Virus record (IMG/VR): IMGVR_UViG_3300025770_000012
Location: 20,948 to 84,947 of that record
DNA: 64,000 bases
From: a virus
Direction: 5' to 3' (one strand)
Below the pieces are notes generated by a model, which was not told where the DNA came from, ran no database searches, and saw only the letters and a list, made by a program, of their open reading frames with translations. Positions 2,398-39,582 of the stretch are shown here, piece after piece. Position 1 is the first letter of the stretch. Each line of letters starts with the position of its first letter. Made by a program: the position numbers and the translations under genes.

Positions 2398-5300
2398 TTA
2401 GCGGACGATCTTATCTTGAGGATAGATCTCAGCAGCGCGCACTACCCCAGAGAGACCAGGTAAGAACTTCCAAGTATAATATCCTGGGCCTGTTCTGTCT
2501 TGTGCAGAATCTTCTCCGAAGAGTCCGTCTCGCATCTCATCCATAGAGTTCGAAGTCCACTTTAAACCTTGTTGAGCAAGTGAAATAAGTGGAATACCAG
2601 ATGCTCTAGGTCCTGTCATCTCTGTAGGATCGTAGAATACAGCAGTCTCACGGTATATCCTATTGACCACACTCAATAGCTTTCTTCCAGCCCAAGATTG
2701 TTTTAGATCAACTTTATCATCATCGTCCCAGTCTCCTCCAAGCGCAAGCATGAGTCCTATTAAGAGGAACACCGCTCTAAGCTCCATGAGAGCTCCTCTA
2801 ATGTTAGCACGTTTAAAGTCTAAAAACTTTTCAAAAGATACTTCCTTTTCTGCTTCATTTTTAAAATCAAATTCTGGGTTACCTTTTTCGTTCTCTATAA
2901 ACTTTTCAAATTCTAACCGAGCTCTATTATCTTTAATTTTATAGGCATTAGTTAAACCAAAGGTTCCTATATCTACACCAATCTTAGCTAAATCAGTAAG
3001 AGCGTCTGTAGTAAAGATATGCATCCATGTCTCCGTGTCTACTACTTGCCCAAAACTGTCAAATTGTGCATCTGCTCCTATGTTGCCCCACATTGTCTTC
3101 CAAGTACCCTGATCAAAATTCTCCATAATATAATCATAGCGCAGGTTTCCAAATCTTTCAATGGCAATACCAGGTAACCAAGATCTGTAATGGATAAACA
3201 GCCTGTTAATCAGCTTATTTTGAGAATTAAATCTATCCTCTTTAGGCACAGCACCCTTCACTTTGGATCCTATTTTATGTACTTTTTGTTTAAAAGATAC
3301 CCAATTTCTATTATTTTCTTTTAAATTCTCCACTTCAGGAATCTTAGTAAGATACCTATCTTGAGTTCCTGTACGTTCCCAGGTAGGGTTTTCTTCAATT
3401 TCAATAGTATCCCATATGGATTCTGTCCCTTCAGGAAGGTCCTTTAAAAGTTCTAACTTTTTTGTTTTTGGATTAATTCCGTAGTTCATAGCCATACCTG
3501 CTGCTAAAACAGCATCTAAAGTACGATCTGCTCGAGCTAAAAACTCAAACCATCTATCCGCTGTCATGTATTTAGCACGAGTAGTAGATGATAGCATATC
3601 CGCACGCCTTGTAGACAAGTCCTCTAAGGTTAATTGAAAGTACTCAAATACTGCACGTAACTTAGGGTCTCGTGAGAAGTATGCTTTTTGTGCTGCTCTT
3701 AGATTAGATCTTGTTAAATATAATCCTTTAGAAGCTTGCATTTCTAATCCCATAAATCCAGCACCCAAAGCTCCAATTGCTACTGGAGATTTTAAACCAA
3801 GAGTAGCTATAGTATGGTAATTTTTAGCTACTAATATAGTTTTATTAACACTTAAATCTTTACCGAAAGTTTTATCTTTAGTAACCAGACTTTGTCCAAA
3901 AAATTCTGCATTAATAAATTCGGTTATAGTACCAGCATTAGTTCTAGTAGCCTCTCCTTTTGCTCTACCAATAGAATCAAGAATTATATCCCCAAGTTTA
4001 TCTTGTGTAGCTTCTTCTATATGAGAATCTTTAAAAAGACTTTCCATCATAAGCAGAGTAGGAGTTATGTCATTTAAATAGCTATACATATGAGCGGCGC
4101 TTCCTAGTAGATAAAGATTTTTACCTAGCTCTTTACTTTTTAAACTAGAATCATACTTATCTTGACTGTTCTTTAAAGGAGTAACATGAAATCTTGGTAT
4201 GCTACGAAGAAACTCTCCGTCCAACCCTACCATACCAAATTGCTTATCATGCTCCTTAAGTTGAAATTTATCTAACCATGCTTGCTTCATCTTTCCCATG
4301 TCAAACCCATCCTGTAAGAACTGGTCGATCATATTTTTATGAATATCTGCAACATAGTTATATTTCTTATCTACACCCATCAATCGTAAGAACTCAGATG
4401 TTTTCTTAATATGGTAATCATAAAAATCTTTAAGTACTGGAGAATTTTGAATCTTCATGTACTCAGGAGATAGATATTTACCCATCTTATTATTATCCTT
4501 GCCAGCCTTTAAAAAAGGGTTTGTAGGATTATACCATGCGGTCTCATGTTTAGGATTAAATCTAGTTTCCCACTTTGCTAGTCTAGAAGCCTGTGTTTTA
4601 GCACTTCCTCCTTTCTCTTTTAAAAGCTTAATTTGATTCGCTCTCCAATTCTTGTACTCTTTATCAAGTAGCTCTTGATCAACCTCAAAATACTGCTGTA
4701 ACCATTTTATATCCTGATCCTCAAATGCCTTTTTTCTATCTTCAGTATACTTCTCATTAAATCTAGCATAGAGATTTCTAGTGTTAGGGTTAATAAGAAC
4801 ATCGTATACTGACGCGCCTGGGTAGCCATTTGCAGACCCCCACTCAAAAAGTGCATTAGTTTTAGATTCTATTTCAGTAGCTAGCTCTTTTTCTATTCTA
4901 ACTAGGTGTCCTTCTATTTCAGCTTTAAAGTTATGTATCAACCTAAGCGCAGGGTGAGACTGACCTGATCTACTAACCCAGTCTGCAGTAAGCTTACCAA
5001 CTTCTTTATTAAACTCTGTAATACCTCGAACCCCTTTATTACTAGCAGATACATCAAGACGTTCCATCATCTTTTCTACTAAAGATTCCTGCTTTCTAGC
5101 TATGTCAGCATGTAATACTTCCAAATCTTTGGACAGTCTAGCTGCTGCATCCTTGTCTTTTTTTTCTAAAGATTTAATAATATCTGTCAGTGTTGTAAAC
5201 TTACTAAAGTGCTTTAAATCCTGGTATGCATTATTTAGTTCTGCAGCAGACATGTAGTCTGGATTGGGATCCCCATTTTTAAGGTACTCCTTATTAGTAT

Positions 5301-7299
5301 TCAGGCCTTTTTCTATAACTTTTAACGTTTGAGAAACCTCCCTAATAACTGCATTAGCGCTTTTAGATACCTGCAGGTCTCTAATAATTCTTCTAGACGC
5401 ATTAATTCTTTCTTGCAAACGTTGCCTCTCAGCATAGTTGGCATCTTTTTGTTGAGAAATAAGAATAGTTAATCTATCCCCTTCCTTTCTTATCAACTTA
5501 TCTAGCCTAGCGAAACCGGTAGTCTCGTGAGCCAAAGCTAGCTGTTGTATGTATTGATTATCATCTGTTTCTAGCTGAATATCATTTACAATCTTGGTGG
5601 GCATGTTATTAGAGTCTCTCTTATAGTCTAACATAATAGGCACAACTCTAGATCTAACAACTTCAGTAACTCCGTATTCACTTAACAGAGTATGTACATA
5701 ACTACCCATCTGTAAGTCATAAGTCTCAGCGCTCTCTAACCATACGTCCTTTCTAAGAACTACTTTACCTGTTTTTTTATCTCGGTAAGCATATCCAGTA
5801 TGTGTTTGAGCGATCTTAGATTTGTAGTCAAATATAGCTGCTGAACCATCACTAAAGAATGCAAGAAGGTCAATAGTACCACCCATCTTCTTAGCACGAT
5901 TAAGAACAAACATCTCTGTACGAATATGAACTTTACCTTTAGGATCTTTTTCCTTCTGTATTGCTTTAATGTCTGCAACTAATTTCTTAGCATACGCATT
6001 AAGCTTCTTAAAGTTTGCTCCGTATTCTGAGTACTCTCGTTCTATTTCTGCAGGGCTTATTTTAGAATTACCAGCATGAAAGTCAATTAGACGCTCCATA
6101 GTTTCGTGAACCCTATTTCCTGAGGTAGTGTGTATCTCAGACCATCTGTCATACTTCTCTTTCTGCTCATCCGAATAGTATCTTTCTGTACTAGAATACT
6201 TCAAAGACCCCTCGTCTGACATACGTTTAAACAGAACCTCACCAGTTACTGAGTTTCGGTAACGCATCACCGTGGTCTCTCCAACACCGGCTAATTTCTT
6301 AAAGTACGGATCATCTCCCACAGGCACTGGTACGGCTTCCCACTTCGATTGGTCTGCTTCTACCCTTTCTAATGGAGTGGCTTCTGCCGTAGCAGAGGAT
6401 GCTTTATAAAAGGTTTCATCTGGCAATACCATAGTAGCCGGATCTGCTTGCATCACATCAGCTAAACGATTATCCATAAGAATCCGCGCAGTCTTTGAGA
6501 AAGGGTTCCCGGCTGTGCCAAATACTTTATTTAGAAGGGCTAATACTTTTTGCCACCATCTATTTAATCTCGATAATTTAGCAGGGTCTAGCTCTGTAGC
6601 TTCAACGTCTGTCTCATTACCCATAATGTGACGTGCTATTACTTTACCAATCGCTTCACGTTTAAGAAGCTCTACGTTTCCTTCATATTTTTTATAGTAG
6701 AATCCATTAGGATCCATAATTTCCGCAAATTCAGCATATCCCTCAATCTGACTCATCATAGAGCGGTATAAGGGATGGTCATCAGTTTGAAGCATAGCTG
6801 TAATAAAGTGAGCTGCCTCCTCTGCTAATGCATCAGTAGTTGCCTCACCTTGAGAAAGTCTTATAACTCTATCAAGAAGTCTAGCCTGACCGACTACTGG
6901 AAGTACCTGTCCAGTCTTATCTTTAATCTGGCTAGCAACTTCAACTTTAACTCCCACGGTCTCTAAGAAGTTATGAAGTGCCTCACCTAGCTTGTCTTTC
7001 TTGTACTCATGGCTTAACTCATGTACAGCAGCTTCATATTCCCCCACATTCTGTGCCGCCTTAGTTATTAAACGTACGGCGTCAGGAGTTAAAGCAGGGT
7101 TGACCTCCCCCTGATTATTCATAACAGCTTGAATTTCTCCAGACTCCGCTTTAGTTTGGAGTTCTAGGTATGAAGCATACGATGCGGTAGGATCGCCTAC
7201 TATCTGATTGATAAATTCAAACAGAGCAGATGGATTCCCATCATTAGCATATACTTCAACTACTTTGCCTGCGTTATCTTTTACTATATTACATGCCAT
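2398..7299 (-). CDS. Giant virion-associated polyvalent protein with HExxH and PD-(D/E)XK nuclease motifs
   Basis: This 1633-residue protein is the last gene of the virion operon and starts on the stop codon of the 4636-residue polymerase gene (TAATG). Near the N-terminus it has a zincin-like AVHELSHEY (His93-Glu94...His97) and a second helix LAEEAAHF (160-165). A RecB-type PD-(D/E)XK nuclease follows: GNRVHETMERL, RTEMFVLN, then GTIDLLAFF (Asp477) and IFDYKSK (Asp491, Lys493). The middle is long and helical with many charged heptads. Hydrophobic segments occur near 1165-1195 and 1505-1520 (LRAVFLLIGLMLALGG). The size, position after the RNA polymerase and mixed enzymatic domains suggest a cargo protein ejected with the DNA, perhaps acting on host DNA. 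Both enzymatic activities are inferred from motifs. Confidence 0.8.
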   Translation of the reverse strand: MACNIVKDNAGKVVEVYANDGNPSALFEFINQIVGDPTASYASYLELQTKAESGEIQAVMNNQGEVNPALTPDAVRLITKAAQNVGEYEAAVHELSHEYKKDKLGEALHNFLETVGVKVEVASQIKDKTGQVLPVVGQARLLDRVIRLSQGEATTDALAEEAAHFITAMLQTDDHPLYRSMMSQIEGYAEFAEIMDPNGFYYKKYEGNVELLKREAIGKVIARHIMGNETDVEATELDPAKLSRLNRWWQKVLALLNKVFGTAGNPFSKTARILMDNRLADVMQADPATMVLPDETFYKASSATAEATPLERVEADQSKWEAVPVPVGDDPYFKKLAGVGETTVMRYRNSVTGEVLFKRMSDEGSLKYSSTERYYSDEQKEKYDRWSEIHTTSGNRVHETMERLIDFHAGNSKISPAEIEREYSEYGANFKKLNAYAKKLVADIKAIQKEKDPKGKVHIRTEMFVLNRAKKMGGTIDLLAFFSDGSAAIFDYKSKIAQTHTGYAYRDKKTGKVVLRKDVWLESAETYDLQMGSYVHTLLSEYGVTEVVRSRVVPIMLDYKRDSNNMPTKIVNDIQLETDDNQYIQQLALAHETTGFARLDKLIRKEGDRLTILISQQKDANYAERQRLQERINASRRIIRDLQVSKSANAVIREVSQTLKVIEKGLNTNKEYLKNGDPNPDYMSAAELNNAYQDLKHFSKFTTLTDIIKSLEKKDKDAAARLSKDLEVLHADIARKQESLVEKMMERLDVSASNKGVRGITEFNKEVGKLTADWVSRSGQSHPALRLIHNFKAEIEGHLVRIEKELATEIESKTNALFEWGSANGYPGASVYDVLINPNTRNLYARFNEKYTEDRKKAFEDQDIKWLQQYFEVDQELLDKEYKNWRANQIKLLKEKGGSAKTQASRLAKWETRFNPKHETAWYNPTNPFLKAGKDNNKMGKYLSPEYMKIQNSPVLKDFYDYHIKKTSEFLRLMGVDKKYNYVADIHKNMIDQFLQDGFDMGKMKQAWLDKFQLKEHDKQFGMVGLDGEFLRSIPRFHVTPLKNSQDKYDSSLKSKELGKNLYLLGSAAHMYSYLNDITPTLLMMESLFKDSHIEEATQDKLGDIILDSIGRAKGEATRTNAGTITEFINAEFFGQSLVTKDKTFGKDLSVNKTILVAKNYHTIATLGLKSPVAIGALGAGFMGLEMQASKGLYLTRSNLRAAQKAYFSRDPKLRAVFEYFQLTLEDLSTRRADMLSSTTRAKYMTADRWFEFLARADRTLDAVLAAGMAMNYGINPKTKKLELLKDLPEGTESIWDTIEIEENPTWERTGTQDRYLTKIPEVENLKENNRNWVSFKQKVHKIGSKVKGAVPKEDRFNSQNKLINRLFIHYRSWLPGIAIERFGNLRYDYIMENFDQGTWKTMWGNIGADAQFDSFGQVVDTETWMHIFTTDALTDLAKIGVDIGTFGLTNAYKIKDNRARLEFEKFIENEKGNPEFDFKNEAEKEVSFEKFLDFKRANIRGALMELRAVFLLIGLMLALGGDWDDDDKVDLKQSWAGRKLLSVVNRIYRETAVFYDPTEMTGPRASGIPLISLAQQGLKWTSNSMDEMRDGLFGEDSAQDRTGPGYYTWKFLPGLSGVVRAAEIYPQDKIVR

Positions 7300-10200
7300 T
7301 ATTCACACTCATTTTCGTTGTTTGCTTTTCTTAAAGATTGTAGGTCTAAAGTACTTGATACTGTTTCAGGTGCTAACTCTTTAGGTTGAGAAGGTATCAA
7401 CTTCTGCGTTTCTAATGTTTCTACTGCAAAGAAACTTCGTTTAACTCTGCCATTAATAAAGGACGTGTTGTATTTATCCTTAGAAAAGTCAGCCCAGTTT
7501 TTATATCCTGAGCGTTTTGCAATAGAGGCTTTAAGGGCCTTTTCATCCTTAACTCCAAAAATACGATATTCATCCTTATTAAGCAACTCCCGCAATGAGC
7601 TGGTTGAAATGTGCTCTAAATGAATAACAGTTCCATTGGGTAATATCTTCGTTCCAGCCTTAACCCGCTTTGGGTCATTAACATCATATGCAAAATGCAA
7701 CATGTCACGTTTAGATTCGTGTAGCTGCTTAATTATTTTTGTAGTTAGATGAAGCCTTTGTCTACCAAATGGATGATTATTAGATTCTATAATCGACTTA
7801 TCTGTGTTTACTTCTATTAAGTGGCCCATAATGCCTTTTTTAGCTCTTCGCTTATAGACATAATAACCATCTTCACTAGTGCCTACATATTCTAAGTGCA
7901 CTGTAAAATACTTCTCATTTGAATTGGACGCGATACCTTTTGCAGCCCCTCTTTGTCTAAGTGACTTTATAGTTACTCTGTCATCATTAAACTCTTTAGT
8001 GTAGATCACTTCATCAGATTTATACATACTCTTATTGGAGTACTTATGACGTGTAATCCTAGGGTTATCCCAAGAATTATCTAAGAAGTCTATTTTTATG
8101 TCTTGGATTACTGAGGTAGTAATACCCCCAACACTTATAGCGTCATGAACTGCCTTCAGCATAGGTGCTGTTGCATCTAAAACTTCAACTCCAGGGAGCG
8201 CATGAAAGAAAGAAGTAGGATGAAAACCTGTTCCAGACTTCATCATACTAAATAGTACAATATCATCCGCTAGTCTTTTTCCAGTGGGTCCACTATTAGA
8301 AAGCTCATACCAAGCATCTGCTAAGTCATCAATTTCTGAAGGAGCGTACTTTCTAGAGAATAACTGCATCATATCTATTGTATGATCGAAATCTGTAGGG
8401 TCTGTAAACTCTTGCAAACTAGAAATAAGGTCTTGAATAAGAGCGTTATCTGGGAAGGTATCTTTAGCTTTAAGTACTCTAGCAGGTAAACTGTTATCTC
8501 CTTGGAAGTACTCAGACAAACTCTCATTTAACTTAGTTAAATCAGTTCTTTGATGTGCCTGCCAAACCCAAGAGGTAACAAAATTATCAAATGCACGTAG
8601 TACATATATAATCTCATCTTTTGATTTACCTTCTGAAATAAGATCTTCTGCCATTTCCACCATCGCAGACTTTAAAGGATTAATCGACTTACCATTAATA
8701 TCAGTACTCATTGCCTCTTTCAAATCAGTCTGTGTAAAGTAATCTGGAGCTGTAGTATACATATCCTGTAGTTTACTTACAAAAGGAGCAGACTTATCTA
8801 TTCCCTCCTCAGACCCTAATTGACCAAGACCAAAGATTCTACTTGTCTTATTAGAAAGACCGTAGAATGCATTCTTACGATTTACAATATTACCAAGCGC
8901 AGCTAGATGTATAAGATCATACCCACTTCCTATCTTATCCGTGTCGAAGGATGAGAGCTTCTGAGCTTTTCTAAGAAGATCTGCATATTCTTTATATCGT
9001 AAGAAGTCTGAGAAGATTTGAGCTTGTAATCCCTTTTGTCCCTTACCCATATCCTTGAGGTTAGTAACTAGCAGACTATCTGAAGCTCTAACCATTTTAC
9101 CAGATCGAGATTCCTCATGTCTGTCCAAAGCCATCTCATTTAAAGCGGCTGTTCCTTCAGATTCTCCTACTAACTTTCTAATCTGATCTTGAACATCGGT
9201 TTCAGAATACGACTCAGCATAATCACTTGTTGTGGAAGCTATAGATTGCATATTCTTTAAGCGATAGTACTCTTGTATTACAGGCTGTGACATAAACTTA
9301 AGAACTGTTTCTAGAGGAACTCCAGCGCGTATTAGCATAACGTGCACTGCAGCTCCTGATTGCCCTGCATTGACATACATAGCAAATGGATCCTTCTCAC
9401 CATCTACATAAGCAGTAATGTACTGCTGCATAGAACGATTTATATAGTTTCCATTAACATCTTTAACTCGTGATAAAGAAATAGTCTCATTCTGCAGGCC
9501 TTCGAAGTTTAGATTATATACTGTAGTATCCATTGGATCTCCAAATCTATCTACTTCTTCTCCTGCCTGATTAAACCCAAATCCGGCTCTTTGTGATTTT
9601 CCAAGGTCAGACATATTGGTTGCAATAATACCCGTACCCCCTAACGTTTGGTGCATTTGATACGTAGTAGTAATGAGATTATCCATACTAAATATATCAA
9701 AGAGTGCTGTGGCTTCTGCTTCTACACCCTTAATACCTGCGGCTACTTGTGCGTTATGTATCTCATGTGCAATATCCTTTAGCTCAAATGCACCTACTGG
9801 GGCAATTAACTGTGGAAAGCTTGCTGGGTGCTTTAAGATATTCTTCATATTCTCAAGAAGCATATTCTGAACAACGTCACTAGGCTGTTGCATTACATCA
9901 GATAGATTATCCCATCCCATCTGAACCATTGTAGTACTTAACTCTATACCCATGACAACCTTTTCAGAAGGATCTATCTCATCTCGGTAAGCTGTGATGT
10001 CAAGTAAGAAATCTCGTAAGCTGTTAGAATCTGTTCCAAATAACTCTGCAGCTGCAGCTCTGAATGCGTTAACATCCCTATCTAACAACTCTAATGGATT
10101 GTCTATTCTTGATACTAACCCTACTTTACTTGTTCCATCTTCTAAAACTGTTCTAGAAACATTAGGTAAGTAGATAGTTAATTTATCAATATCATAGTCA

Positions 10201-13200
10201 GCTCCTGACTTAGCTACCATCTCATGTGGTACAACTACTGTTGCCCCCATACTCTCTGGTAAGAAATCAGCTACTTTGATAAACTCTACAGAATTCAATC
10301 CCTCAGTAGGGATACGGAATCCTACTAGTTCTCTAGCAGCATCAGTTAAGTCTTCAATTCTAACTTCTCCTTCTCCAAAGTGCTTACGCATGTAGTGAGG
10401 TAAGTAAACTTCCATAGCTGTTACAGTTTTACCATCTTTCTCGAAATCATAAAAACGTAATGTTCTATACCCTGGTAAATCTACTGTATCTTGCTTTCTA
10501 GCTTTTAAAGTAAACCCTACATCAGGTTGAAGTACAGCCATAGTACCATTGATCTTTCTAGCTATAACCGCATTGGTTACTATTGAATATAGAAGATCAT
10601 CTAATTTTTGTTTATTGGCTAGCGAGTTTGTATATGAAAGATCCCCAGCAAATAACTCTTCAACTGTATCCTTCATATGCTCCGGATTCTCTCTCTTAGA
10701 AAGTTCTTCAAGGAGAGCATTTTTCATAGACGGCTTAGATTTTCCTGGGATGGCCTCATATCCTTCTTGAGTTCTAATGAATCCTAACTTAGCCGCTAAT
10801 GATGCTTTATCCTTTTCTATCATCGCACTATGGATGGCATGGAACTGCTCATCCAAAGCTTTAAACTCTGGTCCGTAATTTTCAGTATTTAATACCCCGT
10901 CTACAAAGACATTCATAAGAGCCATACTTGCAGACTGTGTACCTACTCGGACGTTAGTCTTATTCTTTAAAGTAGGATCTAACTGCACACCAAAGTATTC
11001 AAGATCGAATTCTTGTTGGTATGAGCTGTCGGCGGACAGTGGTATGTACTCTCCGGTTTCTGTATTAAATGCAGGCTCAAATTGACCCTTAGCATTAGTC
11101 TTAGCTCCAACCTTAGTACCAGACTCAAACACCATATAGTCAAGATTATTATTAACCATATCATAATAAAGATCATCCATAGCAGTATCCTGACCTTGTT
11201 GTGACACGGTCTTGGATAAATTTGGATGTACTGGGTATAAAGCGAATTTGTTGAAGATATTGACTCGCATACCTCCTACTACAGAAGGTGCAAATACTTG
11301 TGGCTTCAATGGTGGAAACAGCGCTAACTCTGAAGGATGTACCTGCTCTCCGGCAATGATCTTTCTATATGCCTGCTCCTGCTTATCACTCCAGTTATCT
11401 GTTAAGAACAATGTACTCCGATAAAAGTCAAACGTAACTAAACCTCCACCATCAAAGATTTCCATATTAGAATATGCTTTAGACACAGAATCTACAAGAT
11501 CCTCACGGCCTAATTCTACAAGTCTGTTTATGTACTTATCTAAATATGGAGACTTCCCAATAACATGTTCCTTTCTAGTAACGAATCTAACAGTTGGAGT
11601 ATGATCCTTCTTCGTACCCATATTAGGCATGTTATTATTCATCCACTCTAGTATACCTTGTGTGTATGTTGGATACTTCTTAACACCCACCATACCCGAT
11701 GTTCTCTTGAACACATCTTTATAAAGTGCAGGACTACCTAAGAACAATCTATGTTGCTCTACTATTCCAATCAACTGATTGTTAGCTAATTTAGTAGCTA
11801 CCCTATTTATAACCGCAGAAGATACTCTACCGTTATCTGTAAACGCAGCTGATCTTTCTCTCTCCGGCAGTGACTCATATGCCTCGTCTATGTGAGTATT
11901 ATCAATACCAATGTTATTATATCCACCCTTTGCTCCTTTGCTAATAAAGCCATACTTAGTTAGTAAGTCTAAAGCCTCCTTTTCTTTTTTAGCTAAGAAA
12001 GCCAGTATTTCTATTTGGGCATCTTTTCCGTATACTGCATCTAACAGTTTAGGATCTGTTTCTGATAATTTACCATTTCCAATATGGAATAGAGCCAATT
12101 TCTGAATCCGTGGAAAGGCTACAGGGTCACCAAAGAACTGTAGTTTCTGCCCGTTCTTTTTTAATTCTGGAATTTGTTGAATCTCTTTATTATTAGCGAT
12201 TGAGTTAGCCATTAAGATTTCACCCAAAAGCAGGTCTTGTAAATACTTACGCATTTCCGGTAAAGACCTATGCTTATTATGGCCTATCTGCAAGGCCTTT
12301 TCCATCTTCTTATTTCCTGTTCGAATCAATGGAACAAAACCCTCTAAAATAGAAGCTACATGCTCTAACGCAATATTGGCCTTGGTAGTCCTAGAAATAT
12401 CATGCCCCACTCCTCTATGTATATCCTTACCTCCCTCAATGGTCCTTATATTCATCACAGGCTCCGAGAGATATAATGACCCTCGCATCCAAGGTGATTC
12501 TTTTAATAAAGCCTCTGCCTCTTCTTCGGTGCTATTCAGTTTGTCAGCTAGTATATTAATATAGCTTTTACGAGTAATACCGAACACCACTTTATTCATA
12601 GGATTAACGTGTTGAAGTGTGATAGCTAAATCTGTAGTATCTATCTCGTAGCCTAATAAAGTCTTTAAGTTACCTTCTACCTCTCTACCAAACAAAGAAG
12701 ATACGTCTCCTTCTGATTCTATAATCTCTTTAAATACCCATCCAGCCACTGCTTCAAACCCCTCTAGTCTGCCATTCTCCTGCATCTCAATAATACGAGA
12801 CTTATTGCTATAGTTGATTCCAATAACATCAAGTAATGCTAGCAGCTGTGGGAATGTTAAGTTTGTCTGAGTCCACTGTTTGAATGATTTGTGCTGCATA
12901 AGACCAGACCCACTAGGTATACCAATGCTTCCTTTTTTATCTATATCAAGTACACGTCTACCCCCTTCTATAGTTTTACCCAGTCCTCTTCTAACGTTGT
13001 CTTTGAAGATGCTGTTCCATGAGCGCTTTAATATATTCTCTGCTCTGTCTGTATTAGAATTAGTAAAATATCTACCCGGATTAGTTTCATAACTTGTCTG
13101 GTTAGCCATTAATGTCACATACTCTTCAGAAGCCACATTGAACGTATTCAAAAAGCCCATTAACATGTACATCTGATTAGCGTTTAAATGCTCTACAGAT

Positions 13201-16200
13201 TCTATTCCCTGACGTATACCTAAACGGTCAAGTAAAAACGCGTATGTTTTGTTTTCTTGGGCAAGCCCTTGTAATACATCTACCATGTCTTCCACATTGT
13301 GGACATTAGCTAGATTTTTATACAGAGTATTAATAACTTGACTAAACGTAGCCAACTGATATGTACCCGATCTATTCTTCTTAAACAAAGATTGCCCGTC
13401 CATATCACTAATGGTCTGAGGTAAAGTACCTAGAAGTAATTTAACTCCAGGAGAAACAAGTGTTCTCTGATCAATAGTATTAGCAGCTCTAATTCCAAGA
13501 GTATCTCTGCTCATACCATTCTCTTCTAGTTCCTGATTTAGAACCTCTTCTAAGCTTCTAGTATTTGCATCCAATTTAAATTGCTGCAAGTACTCTATAT
13601 TCTTAGCAATCAGAGACCCCCATTCTGCTTCGAGAACAGTTAAGACCTCCTCAAGTTTCTGATAATCCGTTTTAAGCTGTAATATACTCTTAGCCATAGA
13701 TGCAGGCTTCCCTGCAGCTCGCCAAGTTTGTATCATTGCATTAGTTTTTTCTCTTAAAGCTTTTTTGTCCTGTACAATAGAACTTCTCACGATAGAATAG
13801 ACAGTGCCCTTACTTCCAGGTATGCCGTATAGTTTACCCAGCTTTTTACCCAATGCTTTGGGATCATTTTTAATCCCGAACAGATCTTCAATCTTGATAG
13901 TATCTGTTTTAGACATAACGTCAAATAGCGCCACTGTCATACCACTGCTCAAATCTCGCTGAACTCCCGTAGTAGATTTCTTAGCTCGACTTGCCGCTCC
14001 TGCTCTTCCGTTTAGAGCCTCTTCAACACTGTAGACGGTATAATCCTCAATAGCATTATTATAGTACCCTGTGTGGATCCTATGAAACAAATCTTGTGAT
14101 TGCTTTGCACTATTTAAGAACTTAAATAAGAAACTAAATAACTTCTGAATCCAAGACTTTTCTATATTGTCCCCGACAGTATAGTTACCATCAGCTTGGA
14201 CATATTCACGAAACTCCTCAGCTAACCACTCATCTGCTTCTAAATCTGTAAAGTCTTTAAGATCTTTAACTGCTCCTTTATATGTAGTTGCTTTTCCTTT
14301 TAGACCTCGAACTTCATTGTATAGCTCAGCTCTTTCCTCTGGAGAAAGTAGTTTTAATGTGATTCCGTGGAATGTCTCGTGATAAAGTGTACCGGCGGCA
14401 GCATCTGCAGAAAGAAGTATTTTCTCTGTCTTACTAAAGAATCCCCAATCTGTACCATTGACTAGCCTTCTAACTATTTCAACATCAAAGATAGGATTAC
14501 CATGTTTGTCTTTGGGAACCATCTTCAAGAATTTAGCATATTCTTCCTCGAAGTTCATACGCTGATAGTCATCGGATATAAGAGCAACTCTGCTGCTTCC
14601 TAATGTATCATCATCTTCTTCCTCATCCTCTTCAGGAAGTTCTTCTATGTCGTTCTTTTTAAGATCCTTTTCATCCTTCTTTGCTTCGTCTTCAGTCTTT
14701 TTACCTAGATCTCCCAACTTCTGTTCAGTAGTCTCATATACTGTATACTCAACTACTCCATCCTCATCTACATTTTCTCGAGATGTATATATAGCAGCCA
14801 TTAGCTCTGCAGACATTTCATCAGTTACCCTCTCTAACGCTATAGAGTTTCCCTCTGGTCCTGTTATAGATTCTAAATCAAAGTGAGTTAAACCGTTCTC
14901 ATGGTCAACGTGATTTATAGTGAGTATAATCTCAACACCGCTTGATCCTTGAACGTACCTATATGTCTGTCCTTCCATAACCCCTGAAGGGGCCAGCCCC
15001 TCTACCTTCTCTTCGGCAACTGGAGTTTCTTCGTCAGTTTCGTCGTCGAGAATATCTGCATTTACAGGAACGTTTCTCAACTTTGGGGCTGAAGTTGGGT
15101 CTCCCATCTGAGATAAAGGAGTGGTCTTAACTTGTGAGCCGTAAGTAAGATAAACATTCATAAATTGAGGAACCTCATACGATAAGTTATCTCTACTAGC
15201 AGAGGACACATCTTCTTCCATATTTACTGTAACGGGAACCTCATGAATACTTCTAGATGAAGTTTCATTAAGAGCCTTTTTACCCATTAAGAAATGAGTA
15301 TAGTTATCCCAGACTCTAGTAGTCACTGTAAGATCTGCTCCAACTACGACCTCAGTATACTGCTTATAATTAGGATTAGCATCCTGCTTTTTTAGAAGGG
15401 CTTTTTCTTTATTAGTTAAACGAGCTAGTTTATTTCTAATCTCCGACTCACTTGCAGTTTTATGTTTTTTTCTAGCTGCTATTATCTTCTTGCGAATAGC
15501 CTTCATTACGTCTGAACTAGATTCAGTAGCAATATCTGTTCTTCCTTTGCTTCGTACTTCTTCGTCAGCTTTTAACGCTAGATTATTAACTTGAACATGT
15601 AGATTAGCAATGAATGTTCGAAGCTCCTCATGCATAACAGGGTATGTCTCCTCACTTGCTAATTGAGCAAATGTGATAGACTGGTCTCCGAAATACAAAG
15701 TATCTCCCTTAGTAAAAATAGAAAACGCAGAGTTTTCCCTTCCTGCAGAGTGCTTACCAAAGTATATTAATTCAGTAAGCTGCTTTATAATACTCTTATC
15801 GTAGTTAGGAGGGAATAGAGCGGATGTGGGTGTGAAATCAGCATTCTCAGTCTTAGAGTTCTCCACTTGAGTAGCTAAGAGCTTTAAGAGATGGTACACA
15901 TTACTAGCTATCTGAGGAGGTAGCGTATTCATTTTAAATCTAACTAGGTTATCATCCTTAACTGCATAGAGAAAACCTGCTCTAACAGTGTATTGTCTAC
16001 CCGCAATGGATACCTTATTAGTTTCCTTATTACTACTAATTCTAAGATCAATATTTTTAACATCTTCTTCTCTTTTAACCAGCGTAGTGCCTGCAAATCC
16101 TTTATGGTCATAGTTCAGACCTGGATAAATTTGCATTCCGTGAGATTTACCAGAGATAGGAATATAAGTGTTACCTTCAGATTGAGCTAGTAACTTTCTA

Positions 16201-19200
16201 CGGAAATCTACATGCTGCTCTAGAATAGCTTTAGACTCCTCTGACATCTCGCCAGTAAAAAAGTACTTACCATCAACTTTAAACCCAGGTACAGTTCCAT
16301 TTACTTTCTTAAGATCTGCTCTACCGTATCTATAAACTTGATGAGTCTTACCTTGAAGATCTGCTTGAGGCTTGTACGCCTCACTGCCCATCATACTAGT
16401 ATAAATGACTCTTCCGTTTACTCTTACTGGAACACCGCGTGAATCTACTACTAAAAGAACAAGATCTTCTTGAGATTCATCTCTCAACTCATTTGTACTA
16501 AACTTAGTTGGTTTCCCCTCTTTATTTGTAGCCGCAGAATACCTTGGATCTCCCTTAGCTCGCTTAGCTCCTGGATGATTATAAAAGAGAACATCTGCCC
16601 CAACCTTATTATCAGCATTTGCTAACTGATTATCAAAATCTATAATATTCTGTCTTGTAAGAACAACTAACTTATGATGATTTGCCAAATCATTTCTATT
16701 AGTTTTAGCTGTCCATTCAAAAAATACTTCTTGGTTTATATACGCTTGAAGTTGAGCTTTCTCAAAAGGCTTTAACTCTCGTTGTGTGGCAAGCAACTGC
16801 AATTCTTCTCGCTTAGCACTAGCAACTGCATGGCTTCCTGCAGTTTTACCCATTCCAGTATGTATAATTGCAGGACTATTATAATAAACCTTTGGCTTAG
16901 TTCCCTTTTGATTATCTATGCTCTTCTCAAATTCCTCATCGTCCATCTCTGCCTCCTTATTATTATCTTCATACTTTCCTTTCTCTCTTTCGTCGGGGAT
17001 AGTACTAGCTTCTGGCGTGAGAATATCATCTATAATAGTAGTAACAGTATTAAACTGATCAATTAAGATGTTGTTGGCGGCGACAATTTTCCCTTGAAGG
17101 GTAGTCTGTTTCTGCACCTCCTCAAAAACGGGACTTAGCTCCATTTGTAGCTCTGTCCTAAGTTTTTCAACAGCAGTATTATATCCAAGCAGCATAGCGT
17201 CAACATTGTTAACCATAGCTTCATATGTAGCCCTATTCTGTTCTTCTGTTGCGCTTTTAAATCTAGCATCATAAGACCCATCTGCTTTGAAATGGAGCAT
17301 ACTTCTAAGACTTTCTAAAACAGGTAACGCTTCTTCGTATTTAGTTTTAAGATCTGCAACTCCTGCATCGAGAAGTCGTACAAGCTCCAGAGGAAGCTCA
17401 TCCATAGTAGATGCAAAATGATATACAGCTTGTGCTAGCTTGTTTAGTTTGTCCACATCCTCCTCGGTAGTGAACATCTCAGACAGCAATTCTACATCTT
17501 TGAAAAAGCCATCCCCTACAAACTTTTCTAAAGTTTCAGCTAATGTATTCCACTGTGTTTTTAGATGCTCTTTGATTCTCTCAGCAACATCCTCTCTAGA
17601 CTCTGCTCCTAAAACAACCTCAATCAGCTTATTGACATTATTAAGCTTTTCAACTAAGACAGCTTTATTTACTTCAATACTAGAAATAGCTTGTTCAACC
17701 GCTGCTAGCTCTACTGCCAAGTTTTTAACTTTCTCTGCAAGATCTTTCTTACGTCTCTCACTTACTCGTGAAGAGTTTGCTTTAACTAAATCTTCAGCTA
17801 ACTTCTCTGCTGCTTCAACAGCATTCTTTAGTCGTTGATCTTCTGCTGCTATTTGATTTTCTAATTCTTGTCTAGCCTCGATTGTAGCAATGTCGATAAT
17901 CTCTTGCACCTGAGCCCCAGCACTTATTTCTCTAAGATTCTCTGCCTGTAATAAAAAGCTAAGATTACGTTCTTGATACTCTGTTGTAAACCCATTAGCT
18001 TTTAATAGTTCATTTATCTCCTCAATTCTTTTGCTGGCCTCTCTGTTGCCTTCTAGCTTTTCTAAAGCTCTTAACTCTAAAATAAGCTCCACATTCTCTT
18101 GTGTAGGATATGTGATTAAGAAGTTGTCCTGATCCGAAGTTGGCTTACCCGGTCTTACATAGAACCTATATGTTCCCGTTTTAGGACCAGTCTCTATCTT
18201 AACACCTGCCGTGGTAAGAGCCGTTTTTAAAGAATCTATTTCTGATAGCCCAGAATCTTTTTCACGAAGCGCTAAAGCATCTTTAATAATTTTCTCTTCT
18301 ATACCTGCCTCTTTAGCTCGAGCAAGAAGACCTTCTTTGGTATCCTTATTAATTCTAGTATAATCAAATTCAATTACTTTTCCTTGGTACTTGACGAATA
18401 GACGCTTAAGTCTGAGATCTTTAATGTCTTCAGCATTGTCTGTCGCCGGGTCATGTAACATCTCAGGACGTAACATCCTAGGCTTTGGTACTTTTTTACC
18501 TCTGTGCTCCTGACTTCCTAAACCAAATGCTGCTTCGTTCTCATGGTAATCCATAAGCTCGTTCACCATATCTATCTTTCTGTGACGTCTAGCTCTGACC
18601 TTTCTAAGGTCCTTCATCATAGTCGTTACATTCTTAATATTTTCTGTGTGCGATCCAGGATCGTCATTCTTCCACTTATCTAAAAGAGCTTGCTCTGAGG
18701 CACTTAAATCTGGGTCTAACCCTTCATTTATCGCTTCTAGTAACTCGGTAGTCTTCTTATCTATCGAGTCAAATTCGTCTCCTAAAGTTCTTAGCTTAGC
18801 CCACTTAACTTGCTCTGCTTCAGTGCCTCCAATATTATGACCGTCTTTATCAAAGACAGCAGGTTTAGGAGTTACTGAGTCGTCTTCTTCTAATGCGGTT
18901 ATTTCCTCCTCTAATTCTTTTCTACGCGTGATTAGGTTTAACACCAATTCCTCCATATGTGTAGGATCGGTAAATTCTTTGATGCCAACCATCTTCATGT
19001 AAGCCTTAGCTTCAGGAAGTGCTAATATCTTTGACTTCTGCTTCTTTGTCAGACGGCCCCACAGTCTAGATACTCTAGCTCGAACCCCTATATCTTCTCT
19101 CTTATCTCTTTCTAAACGAGATTCCACATCCATCTCTCCTTCCAGTGTGCTCCCTATGATCTCTTCAATAGCTTGGATCATAGCATCTTCACGAGCATCT

Positions 19201-21209
19201 AAGTTCTTACTAGTTGCCAGCGCGTGTACAATAGCATCTTTAACGTCTTCGTCGTAATTAACAAACGTTCTATTTACTTTGTTAGATGTAGTTTTTATTT
19301 CAGCAGTTCTAGCTTCCATTAAATCTGCCATCTCTGTTTGCTTATTTCTAATCTCTGCATCATTTAAGTCTTGCAGCTCATCCCAAGCAAAGTTTTGTCT
19401 AAACTCTTCAACGGACATATTACGGATAGTTTCAATATCATCTAAAACCTCTTGCTCAAATCCAGCTTTAAGTCTACTGCTTATATAGTTAAAGATGTTA
19501 TCATCTTTAGTATTCTTACCCATGTAAGGGCTATCAATGATCTGAGACAGGTCTGCCTGGTCTAAATTCACACCTCCTCGAACCATACGATCTCTGTATA
19601 GGTTAAGTGATGTAACAGCGTCGGAATTCTCTTTAAGATCTGTAACCAACTGGTCCAACATCTTCTTTTCAAACTGGCCGTCTTTAATGGTACCATACAC
19701 TCCTCCTTGCCATTTAAACCCAGTCTTAGTCTTACCAGTTAGTTTATCTACTACCGCATCTCCTTTAGAATCTGTTTTAACTCCCATACCAGGAAGCCCG
19801 ATAGCTGCTAATAAAATTCCTATACCAATTTCTTTTTGTCCTTCTTTGGAGCCATATGCCTCCCCCATAGCCCCACCAATGTTACTTACTAATTCAGTTG
19901 CCATTCCTAGAGCGGACGGATCTTTTTTACTATGGTACCAATTCTCTGCAGCCTCTTGTCCTGATAGGTCTAATAATTTTTGACCTCCCTCTTCTACAAA
20001 TCCTTCATATAAAGGAGCCTTTAAAACTCTCCAAGCCTGCCTAGTAAATCCTCTTCCTTTACCAACTGATTTATATAAGGCCTTGTAATCTCTTGCCTTA
20101 CCTTTTACACTGTTACCAATTTGCTTTTTAAAACTATTTTTAGTAGCATTAAATCCTTTACCAAAGATTCTAGGGAACATCATATAGTTACCATACCCCA
20201 CAAGAGCAACATTACCTGCAAATACAGCATTAGCACTCTTAGTGGCAATGTCTACCAAATGGGCCATCTCTTCGTCTCCAGGCTGTCTGCCATACTCCTC
20301 TAGAAATGCACCTGTAAGGTTAGTCATAGTCTGATCGTAGTGGTGTCTAGCTTCTACACCAGATTCATACATAGCACCTGTACCTAACTGTCTTAATGTG
20401 GTACGAGCATTAGACCACCTTTTAGCATTCAGAATATCATCTGCAGCTTTACCTGCTCCCTTACTAGTTGCTCCGGCGCCTAAGTACGCTTTTCCTTTAC
20501 TGAGCCCGGAAGCTTTCCCCGCTTTATGAAAAAGCTGTCCTGCCCGTGCTGCAAGTGAAGACGTAGCAGCACCTCTAGTTAAAGCCTCTGATAAAACAGC
20601 ACCTACAACAAAAGATAAACCTTGAGAAAAGTCATTAGCCCAAAAATTAGCTGTCCCCATAGATTGGAAAAAGTTATAGTCCTGTTCTTCTTTAGTATAG
20701 TAATGTGGAAGGGCACCATCCATCCAATCATTGATGCCATCCATGCTTCTCTGAAAGTCATTATCAAAGAAAGATTTGGTTGCATTGTCTCCTTCAGGAC
20801 CATCGAATAGACCTCCTAAGAAAGCACCTCCTCCATAGACTAATCCTACTGTGGATCCCAAGACATTGGTACCAACACGAGTAACTAGTTTAGGTAAAGC
20901 ATATGCCCATTTTTCTCCTGTAGATTGTCCGTAAGCTCTTAAATCATCTGGATCATCTGAAATGAATGAGAAAGGACGATCAATATATTTTGCATACTCA
21001 GCATAATTAACATTCTTAAGCTGTACTCCTGTTGAAGGAGTATACGAAGCTCCTTCCATATCAAAAGGAATAGGCTCCGCAACGGGAGCTTCTTCGGTAC
21101 CTGTTGTATCTATAATACCATCAGACCCAACTTCATTTCCATCCCCAGGCTGAATTAGATCCGAGTTTGATGTTAAATCTGGGCCTCCATGTTGCTTCTT
21201 GTATGTCAT
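7299..21209 (-). CDS. Giant polyprotein-like virion RNA polymerase (crAss-like vRNAP) with N-terminal ejection and zincin regions
   Basis: At 4636 residues it is the largest gene here. The C-terminal third carries the two-barrel RNA polymerase signature: GFRIPTEGLNSVEF followed by GADYDIDKLTIY, with Asp3671/Asp3673/Asp3675 as the Mg-binding DxDxD motif. This matches the single-polypeptide polymerases of crAss-like phages, which are packaged and ejected to transcribe early genes. Upstream are Gly/Ala-rich hydrophobic segments (about 105-130, 193-223, 445-475), a long coiled-coil region (about 1115-1400), an acidic linker (about 2165-2210) and a metallopeptidase motif LYHETFHGI (His2277-Glu2278...His2281). 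The frame is uninterrupted. It starts just after a 754-residue ejection-type gene and is coupled to the 1633-residue gene. It may be processed into several chains; that is inference. Confidence 0.9.
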   Translation of the reverse strand: MTYKKQHGGPDLTSNSDLIQPGDGNEVGSDGIIDTTGTEEAPVAEPIPFDMEGASYTPSTGVQLKNVNYAEYAKYIDRPFSFISDDPDDLRAYGQSTGEKWAYALPKLVTRVGTNVLGSTVGLVYGGGAFLGGLFDGPEGDNATKSFFDNDFQRSMDGINDWMDGALPHYYTKEEQDYNFFQSMGTANFWANDFSQGLSFVVGAVLSEALTRGAATSSLAARAGQLFHKAGKASGLSKGKAYLGAGATSKGAGKAADDILNAKRWSNARTTLRQLGTGAMYESGVEARHHYDQTMTNLTGAFLEEYGRQPGDEEMAHLVDIATKSANAVFAGNVALVGYGNYMMFPRIFGKGFNATKNSFKKQIGNSVKGKARDYKALYKSVGKGRGFTRQAWRVLKAPLYEGFVEEGGQKLLDLSGQEAAENWYHSKKDPSALGMATELVSNIGGAMGEAYGSKEGQKEIGIGILLAAIGLPGMGVKTDSKGDAVVDKLTGKTKTGFKWQGGVYGTIKDGQFEKKMLDQLVTDLKENSDAVTSLNLYRDRMVRGGVNLDQADLSQIIDSPYMGKNTKDDNIFNYISSRLKAGFEQEVLDDIETIRNMSVEEFRQNFAWDELQDLNDAEIRNKQTEMADLMEARTAEIKTTSNKVNRTFVNYDEDVKDAIVHALATSKNLDAREDAMIQAIEEIIGSTLEGEMDVESRLERDKREDIGVRARVSRLWGRLTKKQKSKILALPEAKAYMKMVGIKEFTDPTHMEELVLNLITRRKELEEEITALEEDDSVTPKPAVFDKDGHNIGGTEAEQVKWAKLRTLGDEFDSIDKKTTELLEAINEGLDPDLSASEQALLDKWKNDDPGSHTENIKNVTTMMKDLRKVRARRHRKIDMVNELMDYHENEAAFGLGSQEHRGKKVPKPRMLRPEMLHDPATDNAEDIKDLRLKRLFVKYQGKVIEFDYTRINKDTKEGLLARAKEAGIEEKIIKDALALREKDSGLSEIDSLKTALTTAGVKIETGPKTGTYRFYVRPGKPTSDQDNFLITYPTQENVELILELRALEKLEGNREASKRIEEINELLKANGFTTEYQERNLSFLLQAENLREISAGAQVQEIIDIATIEARQELENQIAAEDQRLKNAVEAAEKLAEDLVKANSSRVSERRKKDLAEKVKNLAVELAAVEQAISSIEVNKAVLVEKLNNVNKLIEVVLGAESREDVAERIKEHLKTQWNTLAETLEKFVGDGFFKDVELLSEMFTTEEDVDKLNKLAQAVYHFASTMDELPLELVRLLDAGVADLKTKYEEALPVLESLRSMLHFKADGSYDARFKSATEEQNRATYEAMVNNVDAMLLGYNTAVEKLRTELQMELSPVFEEVQKQTTLQGKIVAANNILIDQFNTVTTIIDDILTPEASTIPDEREKGKYEDNNKEAEMDDEEFEKSIDNQKGTKPKVYYNSPAIIHTGMGKTAGSHAVASAKREELQLLATQRELKPFEKAQLQAYINQEVFFEWTAKTNRNDLANHHKLVVLTRQNIIDFDNQLANADNKVGADVLFYNHPGAKRAKGDPRYSAATNKEGKPTKFSTNELRDESQEDLVLLVVDSRGVPVRVNGRVIYTSMMGSEAYKPQADLQGKTHQVYRYGRADLKKVNGTVPGFKVDGKYFFTGEMSEESKAILEQHVDFRRKLLAQSEGNTYIPISGKSHGMQIYPGLNYDHKGFAGTTLVKREEDVKNIDLRISSNKETNKVSIAGRQYTVRAGFLYAVKDDNLVRFKMNTLPPQIASNVYHLLKLLATQVENSKTENADFTPTSALFPPNYDKSIIKQLTELIYFGKHSAGRENSAFSIFTKGDTLYFGDQSITFAQLASEETYPVMHEELRTFIANLHVQVNNLALKADEEVRSKGRTDIATESSSDVMKAIRKKIIAARKKHKTASESEIRNKLARLTNKEKALLKKQDANPNYKQYTEVVVGADLTVTTRVWDNYTHFLMGKKALNETSSRSIHEVPVTVNMEEDVSSASRDNLSYEVPQFMNVYLTYGSQVKTTPLSQMGDPTSAPKLRNVPVNADILDDETDEETPVAEEKVEGLAPSGVMEGQTYRYVQGSSGVEIILTINHVDHENGLTHFDLESITGPEGNSIALERVTDEMSAELMAAIYTSRENVDEDGVVEYTVYETTEQKLGDLGKKTEDEAKKDEKDLKKNDIEELPEEDEEEDDDTLGSSRVALISDDYQRMNFEEEYAKFLKMVPKDKHGNPIFDVEIVRRLVNGTDWGFFSKTEKILLSADAAAGTLYHETFHGITLKLLSPEERAELYNEVRGLKGKATTYKGAVKDLKDFTDLEADEWLAEEFREYVQADGNYTVGDNIEKSWIQKLFSFLFKFLNSAKQSQDLFHRIHTGYYNNAIEDYTVYSVEEALNGRAGAASRAKKSTTGVQRDLSSGMTVALFDVMSKTDTIKIEDLFGIKNDPKALGKKLGKLYGIPGSKGTVYSIVRSSIVQDKKALREKTNAMIQTWRAAGKPASMAKSILQLKTDYQKLEEVLTVLEAEWGSLIAKNIEYLQQFKLDANTRSLEEVLNQELEENGMSRDTLGIRAANTIDQRTLVSPGVKLLLGTLPQTISDMDGQSLFKKNRSGTYQLATFSQVINTLYKNLANVHNVEDMVDVLQGLAQENKTYAFLLDRLGIRQGIESVEHLNANQMYMLMGFLNTFNVASEEYVTLMANQTSYETNPGRYFTNSNTDRAENILKRSWNSIFKDNVRRGLGKTIEGGRRVLDIDKKGSIGIPSGSGLMQHKSFKQWTQTNLTFPQLLALLDVIGINYSNKSRIIEMQENGRLEGFEAVAGWVFKEIIESEGDVSSLFGREVEGNLKTLLGYEIDTTDLAITLQHVNPMNKVVFGITRKSYINILADKLNSTEEEAEALLKESPWMRGSLYLSEPVMNIRTIEGGKDIHRGVGHDISRTTKANIALEHVASILEGFVPLIRTGNKKMEKALQIGHNKHRSLPEMRKYLQDLLLGEILMANSIANNKEIQQIPELKKNGQKLQFFGDPVAFPRIQKLALFHIGNGKLSETDPKLLDAVYGKDAQIEILAFLAKKEKEALDLLTKYGFISKGAKGGYNNIGIDNTHIDEAYESLPERERSAAFTDNGRVSSAVINRVATKLANNQLIGIVEQHRLFLGSPALYKDVFKRTSGMVGVKKYPTYTQGILEWMNNNMPNMGTKKDHTPTVRFVTRKEHVIGKSPYLDKYINRLVELGREDLVDSVSKAYSNMEIFDGGGLVTFDFYRSTLFLTDNWSDKQEQAYRKIIAGEQVHPSELALFPPLKPQVFAPSVVGGMRVNIFNKFALYPVHPNLSKTVSQQGQDTAMDDLYYDMVNNNLDYMVFESGTKVGAKTNAKGQFEPAFNTETGEYIPLSADSSYQQEFDLEYFGVQLDPTLKNKTNVRVGTQSASMALMNVFVDGVLNTENYGPEFKALDEQFHAIHSAMIEKDKASLAAKLGFIRTQEGYEAIPGKSKPSMKNALLEELSKRENPEHMKDTVEELFAGDLSYTNSLANKQKLDDLLYSIVTNAVIARKINGTMAVLQPDVGFTLKARKQDTVDLPGYRTLRFYDFEKDGKTVTAMEVYLPHYMRKHFGEGEVRIEDLTDAARELVGFRIPTEGLNSVEFIKVADFLPESMGATVVVPHEMVAKSGADYDIDKLTIYLPNVSRTVLEDGTSKVGLVSRIDNPLELLDRDVNAFRAAAAELFGTDSNSLRDFLLDITAYRDEIDPSEKVVMGIELSTTMVQMGWDNLSDVMQQPSDVVQNMLLENMKNILKHPASFPQLIAPVGAFELKDIAHEIHNAQVAAGIKGVEAEATALFDIFSMDNLITTTYQMHQTLGGTGIIATNMSDLGKSQRAGFGFNQAGEEVDRFGDPMDTTVYNLNFEGLQNETISLSRVKDVNGNYINRSMQQYITAYVDGEKDPFAMYVNAGQSGAAVHVMLIRAGVPLETVLKFMSQPVIQEYYRLKNMQSIASTTSDYAESYSETDVQDQIRKLVGESEGTAALNEMALDRHEESRSGKMVRASDSLLVTNLKDMGKGQKGLQAQIFSDFLRYKEYADLLRKAQKLSSFDTDKIGSGYDLIHLAALGNIVNRKNAFYGLSNKTSRIFGLGQLGSEEGIDKSAPFVSKLQDMYTTAPDYFTQTDLKEAMSTDINGKSINPLKSAMVEMAEDLISEGKSKDEIIYVLRAFDNFVTSWVWQAHQRTDLTKLNESLSEYFQGDNSLPARVLKAKDTFPDNALIQDLISSLQEFTDPTDFDHTIDMMQLFSRKYAPSEIDDLADAWYELSNSGPTGKRLADDIVLFSMMKSGTGFHPTSFFHALPGVEVLDATAPMLKAVHDAISVGGITTSVIQDIKIDFLDNSWDNPRITRHKYSNKSMYKSDEVIYTKEFNDDRVTIKSLRQRGAAKGIASNSNEKYFTVHLEYVGTSEDGYYVYKRRAKKGIMGHLIEVNTDKSIIESNNHPFGRQRLHLTTKIIKQLHESKRDMLHFAYDVNDPKRVKAGTKILPNGTVIHLEHISTSSLRELLNKDEYRIFGVKDEKALKASIAKRSGYKNWADFSKDKYNTSFINGRVKRSFFAVETLETQKLIPSQPKELAPETVSSTLDLQSLRKANNENECE

Positions 21210-21222
21210 ATTCTATATATTA

Positions 21223-26400: not shown

Positions 26401-26750
26401 AATTTCTCCGATTGAGAGTACTCTAAGGATTTACCTGCAGTAGTAAACGCAGAGTTTCTCCCCTGCCGATCTTCCTCGAGTCCCTCTGAAATGAGATTTT
26501 TATTTTCCTCCCTAGTCCTTACCGCTTCTTCTGCCAACGCCGCAGAGTCTGTCACAGCCTTTTTCTTACCTAAAGCTAAAGCCTCCTGCTTAGCTTTGAG
26601 TGTATTAGGATCGTTTTCCGCATATACTATATTAGCAGTAGTGTTTCCAGATCCTTGCCCTGCCGCCTGGATAGTATTATCAGAATACATCTTGCTGCCT
26701 GCGAATTGGTATCTGCGTGTTTGTCTTTTATTAAGTGCTCTTTTGGCCAT
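23499..26750 (-). CDS. Probable cargo protein with KGG-motifs and a peptidoglycan-binding-like segment
   Basis: The 1083-residue protein starts on the stop codon of the muzzle-like gene (TAATG). The N-terminal third is Ala-rich and helical, with a Gly-rich hydrophobic patch (VFGPVGSVVGGVVGGG). The middle contains QKGGYMG, ETGGKRLPGG, a KNGG motif, a poly-Gly tract before residue 580, then a disordered Ser/Thr-rich linker. A segment with AYQSSWNELHP...KVDGKLGEQTW resembles the PG_binding_1 repeat (Gln/Trp helix followed by VDGxxGxxTW). An acidic stretch and a long Gln/Asn-rich coiled coil follow, and the C-terminus is AQKGGFSSNGYKRRYF. I read it as a virion cargo or ejection protein that may contact the cell wall. 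The peptidoglycan-binding reading is tentative. Confidence 0.65.
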   Translation of the reverse strand: MAKRALNKRQTRRYQFAGSKMYSDNTIQAAGQGSGNTTANIVYAENDPNTLKAKQEALALGKKKAVTDSAALAEEAVRTREENKNLISEGLEEDRQGRNSAFTTAGKSLEYSQSEKFKNGVSGVLANHQAKQLAKQAATDGLRRGSGEIAKRLTGDVTRDALLSKTSSTFAKEGMGSALDVMANYGAKQVATEGAKTAGAEAAKKVGTEAATSAVSSAGSYSTPYATIANVAGTGIKVLGADDNDRTVNAAEIGGNMMSRAGEFAGYGSVFGPVGSVVGGVVGGGLGVAETLHDRNKARLQWDSNKRREDSQIEGDNSQLVRDMYANSTEAKIAELQSKTTSGYDLGTNTTAKDGGQRALPPFVNTGYGMEPCVDCEKAKPSPQMQKGGYMGVPQAQPVGDEGNYMARMQQYETGGKRLPGGVAKSLPGGEHAEIYLGNEHDESGQGSQSGILLDVDKDTRLERGGSNDVGTEVEDQETKDRIAGRDYFFSSDGKAKNGSTFAENHQSILNSNSSPGEKENQKHMLAQLQEQHYGRKPLANKPVNLAKNGGLRYQWGGVGGGGGGGNTTPFMSKSKKEPSGTYYKDPNSDAVYYLGGDGKRRRFKSEEEYMAHRKSNNLPADYSDVAGTQEASPEAEKGRAAEKAELKSESAPATSKPTTTSTSGSRSPSGRGNTFKVASDTYYDTEVYGDIADRQDSYVVDGQTFYAGSDDSAFRESLQDSEFRDNWIENADPAVLEAAGITSLEDMKDADKVTAYQSSWNELHPDNTIKVDGKLGEQTWRTATGNTDEEEGEEEVVKEDDEGNMETVDTEDSSGTDEILEEGDDKLSQLAAMAQLLPAALASKQGPDYKKNNLMANIPPIFAERLAKSNLERVDLNSDKAIVGADAHAMNQFIDSSGGGSSNVINKMAAYSKKQQALGQVRSQELQANDAIRNQETVMDAQRKATNAQNALTASQVNVGNQKDVNVVNAAERSATETYNRDQDVRVKNRKLMALDTATSNLANMNRDRLSYDAQDRYTAAIAGTTGVDERANYQELLLKNNIDPNSPKGIEMMTTFNNRNDKPDKAQKGGFSSNGYKRRYF

Positions 26751-39581: not shown

Positions 39582-39582
39582 G

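Follow-up and report, generated by a model that had tools for sequence, protein, structure and literature searches.

The 64,000-nucleotide stretch of DNA analysed here (the window) carries on its minus strand a giant gene whose product is best read as a fusion of two virion-packaged proteins, the gp47-type protein of crAss001 (gp67 in phi14:2) and the RNA polymerase (gp50 in crAss001, gp66 in phi14:2). It would be packaged, ejected and refolded as one chain, with cutting between the two halves as a final step that is favoured but not proven; we give this reading as a whole a probability of about 0.75. The ejection part is called A, the zincin-like domain at the joint Z1 and the polymerase B. 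The features concerned, all on the minus strand, are:

7299..21209 (-): giant fused virion cargo protein A-Z1-B, 4,636 aa (open reading frame; colinear relative L007)
19788..20951 (-): N module, ejection-type, residues 87-474 (phmmer and HMM matches, PHROG 32390)
14565..14669 (-): acidic, predicted-disordered linker, residues ~2181-2215 (charge profile, pLDDT 39-54)
13920..14477 (-): zincin-like domain Z1, residues ~2245-2430 (alignment, AlphaFold, homology to the crAss001 gp47 C-terminus)
7740..13889 (-): RNA polymerase, residues ~2441-4490 (6vr4 profile and Foldseek matches; catalytic DYDID 3671-3675)
2398..7299 (-): protein C, downstream cargo protein of gp49/gp65 type, 1,633 aa (Z2 and a PD-(D/E)XK-like nuclease)
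6340..7002 (-): zincin-like Z2 region of protein C, residues 100-320 (EEAAH at 160-164 replaces HExxH)
21223..23487 (-): upstream gene, 754 aa, candidate channel or cargo protein by position (strongly hydrophobic segment 365-383)
23499..26750 (-): upstream gene, 1,083 aa, candidate cargo protein by position (Gly-rich hydrophobic segment 270-288)

The gene is a single uninterrupted frame, as the first-pass annotation had claimed without giving the strand; it runs from an ATG to a TAA that overlaps the following gene's ATG (TAATG), and codon-position GC is uniform along its length. The virus contig that carries it is 84,947 bp long. Its terminase, portal and major capsid protein families are of Crassvirales type, it also encodes crAss tail ring protein 1, and its TerL matches those of gut crAss-like phages at 42%. 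Neither a near-identity DNA search in phages nor an Rfam search of positions 2398-24000 gave a match. The closest relative, locus L007 on another contig, has a colinear gene of 4,626 aa, with a polymerase 55% identical to that of the window.

That the C-terminal part is a crAss-like (Crassvirales) virion RNA polymerase, as had been proposed from the sequence, can be regarded as established from profile matches and the predicted structure. A single-sequence search of the PDB gave one match, the phi14:2 virion RNA polymerase 6vr4 (E 6e-19), and a profile of residues 2880-4079 found the same protein, gp66, with E 6.9e-182. The AlphaFold model of these residues (pLDDT 87, pTM 0.87) has 6vr4 as its first Foldseek match (E 2.4e-37, TMq 0.71, over 1,358 columns); the lack of a two-barrel fold around residues 3600-3700 had been named beforehand as a refutation, and it did not come about, the model as a whole matching the two-barrel 6vr4. 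The DxDxD motif, DYDID at 3671-3675, aligns with DFDID 1361 of gp66; its three Asp are invariant in 60 sequences (alignment columns D792, D794 and D796), as are several Lys/Arg columns. The polymerase of gp66 is of the same kind, two barrels and a DxDxD in a single chain, and the homology extends over the 1,200 aa that were modelled; the outer limits of ~2441-4490 are inferred from gp66. An N4-type (T7-like single-subunit) polymerase was considered and rejected, 6vr4 being the sole PDB relative below E 0.001.

The first-pass annotation had also described an ejection-like region, and the N module (~87-474) does belong with virion proteins of the gp47/gp67 type: it is homologous to the N-termini of crAss001 gp47 (phmmer E 3e-21), phi14:2 gp67 and phi17:2 gp39, which have been reported as virion proteins, and matches PHROG 32390 with E 5e-47. 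In phi17:2 gp39 it occurs without the zincin motif and without the polymerase, so the module is autonomous. Virions of crAss001 have been reported to contain gp47 together with gp49 and gp50 (PMC10172136), and the annotation of gp65-gp67 in the phi14:2 record is based on proteomics. The hydrophobic Gly-rich segments noticed earlier are present as Gly/Ala-rich stretches, which peak at 116-134 and 461-479; they are compatible with membrane engagement, and a channel role may be inferred. The long coiled coils described alongside them are weakly supported, a single 56-aa segment passing a simple heptad test.

Between the two halves lie the acidic linker and the HExxH motif, both of which had been pointed out before and both of which were recovered: residues 2101-2200 include 34 D/E (net charge -24), and HETFH stands at 2277-2281, where composition would predict 0.13 such motifs in the whole protein. 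The motif belongs to a zincin-like domain, Z1, which is placed exactly at the joint of the ejection part and the polymerase and which corresponds by homology to the C-terminus of crAss001 gp47. Since a gp47-type N module and Z1 are here joined to a polymerase, the gene is a fusion of a gp47-like and a gp50-like part. Few parts of the giant protein are as well conserved as Z1, with 63% identity between the window and L007 as against 23% in the linker region (2001-2200). In an alignment of 50 loci the His-Glu pair is invariant, the second ligand position is His or Glu, and a conserved ExxA(E/D) follows ~45 residues after the motif. This includes the putative third ligand, E2327 (alignment E188), which is at least 90% conserved and lies on model helix 183-199. 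The core of the AlphaFold model is confident, and HETFH falls in a helix (135-148) after a strand (124-128). A Pfam scan of the Z1 alignment members gave no zincin family at E 0.1, NCBIfam (whole protein) and PDB sequence searches gave no significant zincin match, and Foldseek of the model in the PDB gave no significant fold match (best E 1.3), so the label of putative metallopeptidase rests on the motif and secondary structure. In BFVD, the model matches mostly other crAss-like giant proteins.

A relative of Z1 is found beyond the polymerase. Protein C, which carries the PD-(D/E)XK-like nuclease at residues ~388-500, begins with a region, Z2, in which an EExxH of the type TLxEEAAHF is present in 116 of 131 loci. 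A comparison of the Z1 and Z2 profiles matched 134 columns and set HExxH against EExxH (probability 93, E 2.6e-7), while none of twelve controls (reversed, column-shuffled and other regions) did better than E 0.0045; a second, independent pair of alignments gave the same register (probability 53, E 1.3e-4). Z1 and Z2 are thus probably paralogues, to judge from these profiles, and the polymerase would be bracketed as A-Z1-B / Z2-C. HELSH at residue 93 had been tried as the zincin motif of protein C and was discarded, the profile placing the conserved site at EEAAH 160-164.

Each of these parts has its counterpart in known phages, differently arranged. In phi14:2, gp67 carries the N module, as the window protein does; unlike in the window, gp66 and gp67 are separate genes, and neither has a detectable Z1 or an HExxH. 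In crAss001, gp47 has the N module and, towards its C-terminal end, a Z1 whose HEAFH is intact, gp50 is the polymerase and gp49 matches protein C; these are three genes, with gp47 on the opposite strand, whereas A and B of the window form one frame. The Suoliviridae cr50_1 (4,774 aa), cr4_1 (4,491 aa) and cr273_1 (5,794 aa), like the window, have one giant gene in which HExxH stands at the joint and DxDxD is present. They differ in that their N module falls below detection with the HMM used and that cr4_1 and cr273_1, unlike the window, need TAG read as an amino acid, cr50_1 using the standard code. The in-frame stops in the giant cargo genes, 36 in cr273_1 (L006) and 38 in cr4_1 (L249), are consistent with that reading of TAG. 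The cr50_1 gene (L248, CDS 8321-22645; 4,774 aa) has HEAFH at 1665 and DFDID at 3154 and is publicly labelled "DNA helicase"; the survey thus reveals fused virion polymerases behind public giant proteins that bear this name or are annotated as "structural protein" or "hypothetical".

Outside this group, an injected polypeptide joining a virion RNA polymerase to a possibly processing zincin has been proposed for N4-like phages and plasmids, as part of the polyvalent proteins (PMC5512222), a paper from which crAss-like phages are absent. Judged by its sequence, the window protein appears to have the same type of architecture, with unrelated enzymatic domains and a zincin-like domain in one polypeptide. 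The N4 virion polymerase gp50 and the polyvalent proteins resemble it in combining an injection region, an RNA polymerase and a zincin-like domain in one virion protein, but the N4 polymerase is of the unrelated T7 type and the order there is injection-RNAP-zincin rather than injection-zincin-RNAP. Phage P23-45 likewise has a virion protein of ~5,000 aa with a fused RNA polymerase homologous to cellular ones, though there it forms the N-terminus of the tail tape measure protein (PMC10770324). The window protein would act in the manner of these proteins, but every test applied places its polymerase in the crAss type.

Related loci were collected by three alignment-based scans, which gave 240 in IMG/VR and 206 after near-identical polymerases were dropped; the scans are pattern-limited and do not amount to a census, and loci with unreadable ends were left out. 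(A search using the whole protein found no related locus, because its patterns fell in variable parts.) Ends could be read in 189 non-redundant loci, of which 94 are fused at the A/B joint and 95 split, so the fused layout of the window is not unusual. The rarity implied by the first-pass annotation therefore does not hold, the same N-module/zincin/polymerase fusion being present on dozens of IMG/VR contigs as well as in gut crAss-like genomes from public records. The window gene belongs to a known kind, giant transcription proteins having already been named as a crAss signature (PMC7886860). Complete fused frames range from 2,969 to 5,925 aa (median 4,213); one open-ended frame carrying the polymerase core (L206) is at least 6,441 aa long. 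Counted from the start of the polymerase core, HExxH is concentrated in two bands, -900 to -1100 and +1200 to +1450 aa, in ~200 loci, and the ~1,900 aa between these bands hold only five motifs in all of these sequences; in split genes it lies mostly 156-377 aa ahead of the polymerase frame. What the survey adds is these bands flanking the polymerase, the Z2 relative and the decay of Z1 described below, an earlier mention of the zincin being possible.

On the reading preferred here, the protein would be packed in the head with other cargo proteins, as suggested by the mass-spectrometric detection of its homologues in virions. It would exit by its N-terminus, so that the N module, hydrophobic and rich in Gly/Ala, goes ahead through the tail and the envelope, and the polymerase would refold in the cytoplasm and transcribe the early genes, as is established for phi14:2 and expected here by homology. 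Taken as a set, these three steps are highly probable. Finally Z1, which follows the flexible acidic linker at the exact joint, might cut and so free the polymerase from the membrane-engaged part; this step is put forward tentatively, at somewhat less than even odds. How a polymerase-containing protein of ~500 kDa passes through a narrow tail and is then activated is a question that concerns the commonest gut phages.

The evidence on self-cutting by Z1 is mixed, and the earlier suggestion that the protein delivers itself and is then cut is plausible, with a conceptual precedent in the polyvalent proteins (PMC5512222). The window's clade comprises 19 loci (support 1.0) and includes a split sister clade (L008-L010, L018, L020 and L021; support 0.993). 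In those six loci Z1 is degenerate at the start of the polymerase frame (YENSFN, YSNTFS, YYHNFV) or gone, while the fused window and L007 retain the intact motif; this decay favours self-cutting, though it counts as one evolutionary event. Order-wide, among loci with an A protein in view, fusion shows no association with an intact HExxH (retained to not retained, 40:37 fused and 18:22 split; p 0.56). When HExxE is also taken as retained, the counts become 61:16 against 19:21 (p 7e-4, uncorrected for relatedness). Parsimony gave six motif losses over 59 units of fused branch and four over 25 units of split branch, numbers too small to tell the two apart; crAss001 was there miscounted as a split loss because A proteins on the opposite strand were ignored. 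HExxE replaces HExxH in a fused clade of ~22 loci, and another ~17 fused loci are without Z1, while HExxH is kept despite the split in crAss001, Dulem virus 41 and Intestiviridae-type splits. It is the single decay event, the order-wide null, these HExxE and Z1-less fused loci and the crAss001 motif together that keep the hypothesis of cleavage a little short of an even bet. Among the HExxE loci the forms HEAFE and HEIFE occur with the Glu kept throughout (L034, L036, L039-L042, L045, L046, L050, L051, L055, L057, L060 and others).

Another possibility, worth serious consideration if clearly under even odds, is that the protein is never cut, Z1 being a structural or encapsidation module, and that fusion and fission reflect neutral drift of the gene boundaries between three giant cargo proteins travelling as a group. 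There are ~18 changes between fused and split in the tree, and the N4 virion polymerase is packaged uncleaved though its zincin sits in a region needed for encapsidation (PMC5512222); the large HExxE clade would suit such a role, and the EExxH of Z2 indicates that inactive-looking relatives persist. Against it, wherever Z1 is in view in the window's clade, the fused members all have both HExxH and ExxA, which the split sister clade has lost, and two His and a Glu are not needed for a purely structural role.

It is unlikely that Z1 is instead an injected effector which travels with the polymerase and acts by cutting a protein of the host, such as one of defence or transcription. The polyvalent-protein precedent allows effector zincins (PMC5512222) and the separate gp47 of crAss001 ends in an intact HExxH, but the position of Z1 is fixed at the joint, and an independent effector would not be expected to decay when the joint breaks, as happened in the window's sister clade. 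Equally improbable, as a whole, is a wider extension of the cutting model, in which the paralogous Z1 (HExxH) and Z2 (EExxH, possibly a non-catalytic partner) would form a two-site maturation system common to the Crassvirales cargo proteins, A-Z1-B-Z2-C; Z1 would free the polymerase during assembly or delivery, fusion and fission would be interchangeable while Z1 works, and Z1 would decay after a break at the gene level. The position of Z1 at the joint, its decay in the sister clade and Z2 do yield residue-level, falsifiable predictions for laboratory phages, among them crAss001 and phi14:2.

That the long frame is an artefact of assembly or of stop codons can be dismissed: TAG is read through in some relatives, but the standard code is enough for the window gene, its coding signal is uniform, and fused loci occur independently by the dozen. 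The colinear gene of L007, on a separate contig, excludes an accident of assembly and shows the length to be real.

A few further observations concern related genomes and the rest of the window. In cr108_1 (L001), ~290 nt at 19860-20154 interrupt the polymerase gene exactly at the DxDxD codons, and the halves are annotated as separate ORFs; this is probably an unannotated intron. The virion-detected gp70 of phi14:2 (L002) contains two HExxH motifs, HEFTH (234) and HEFIH (461). At 53795-56149 (-) the window encodes a protein of 784 aa that begins with a DUF192-like part and has a C-terminus of the endolysin family. Three tandem genes at 38334-44369 (-), of 415, 700 and 894 aa, all belong to the tail-protein family PHROG 5939 and are probable duplicated tail or receptor-binding genes.
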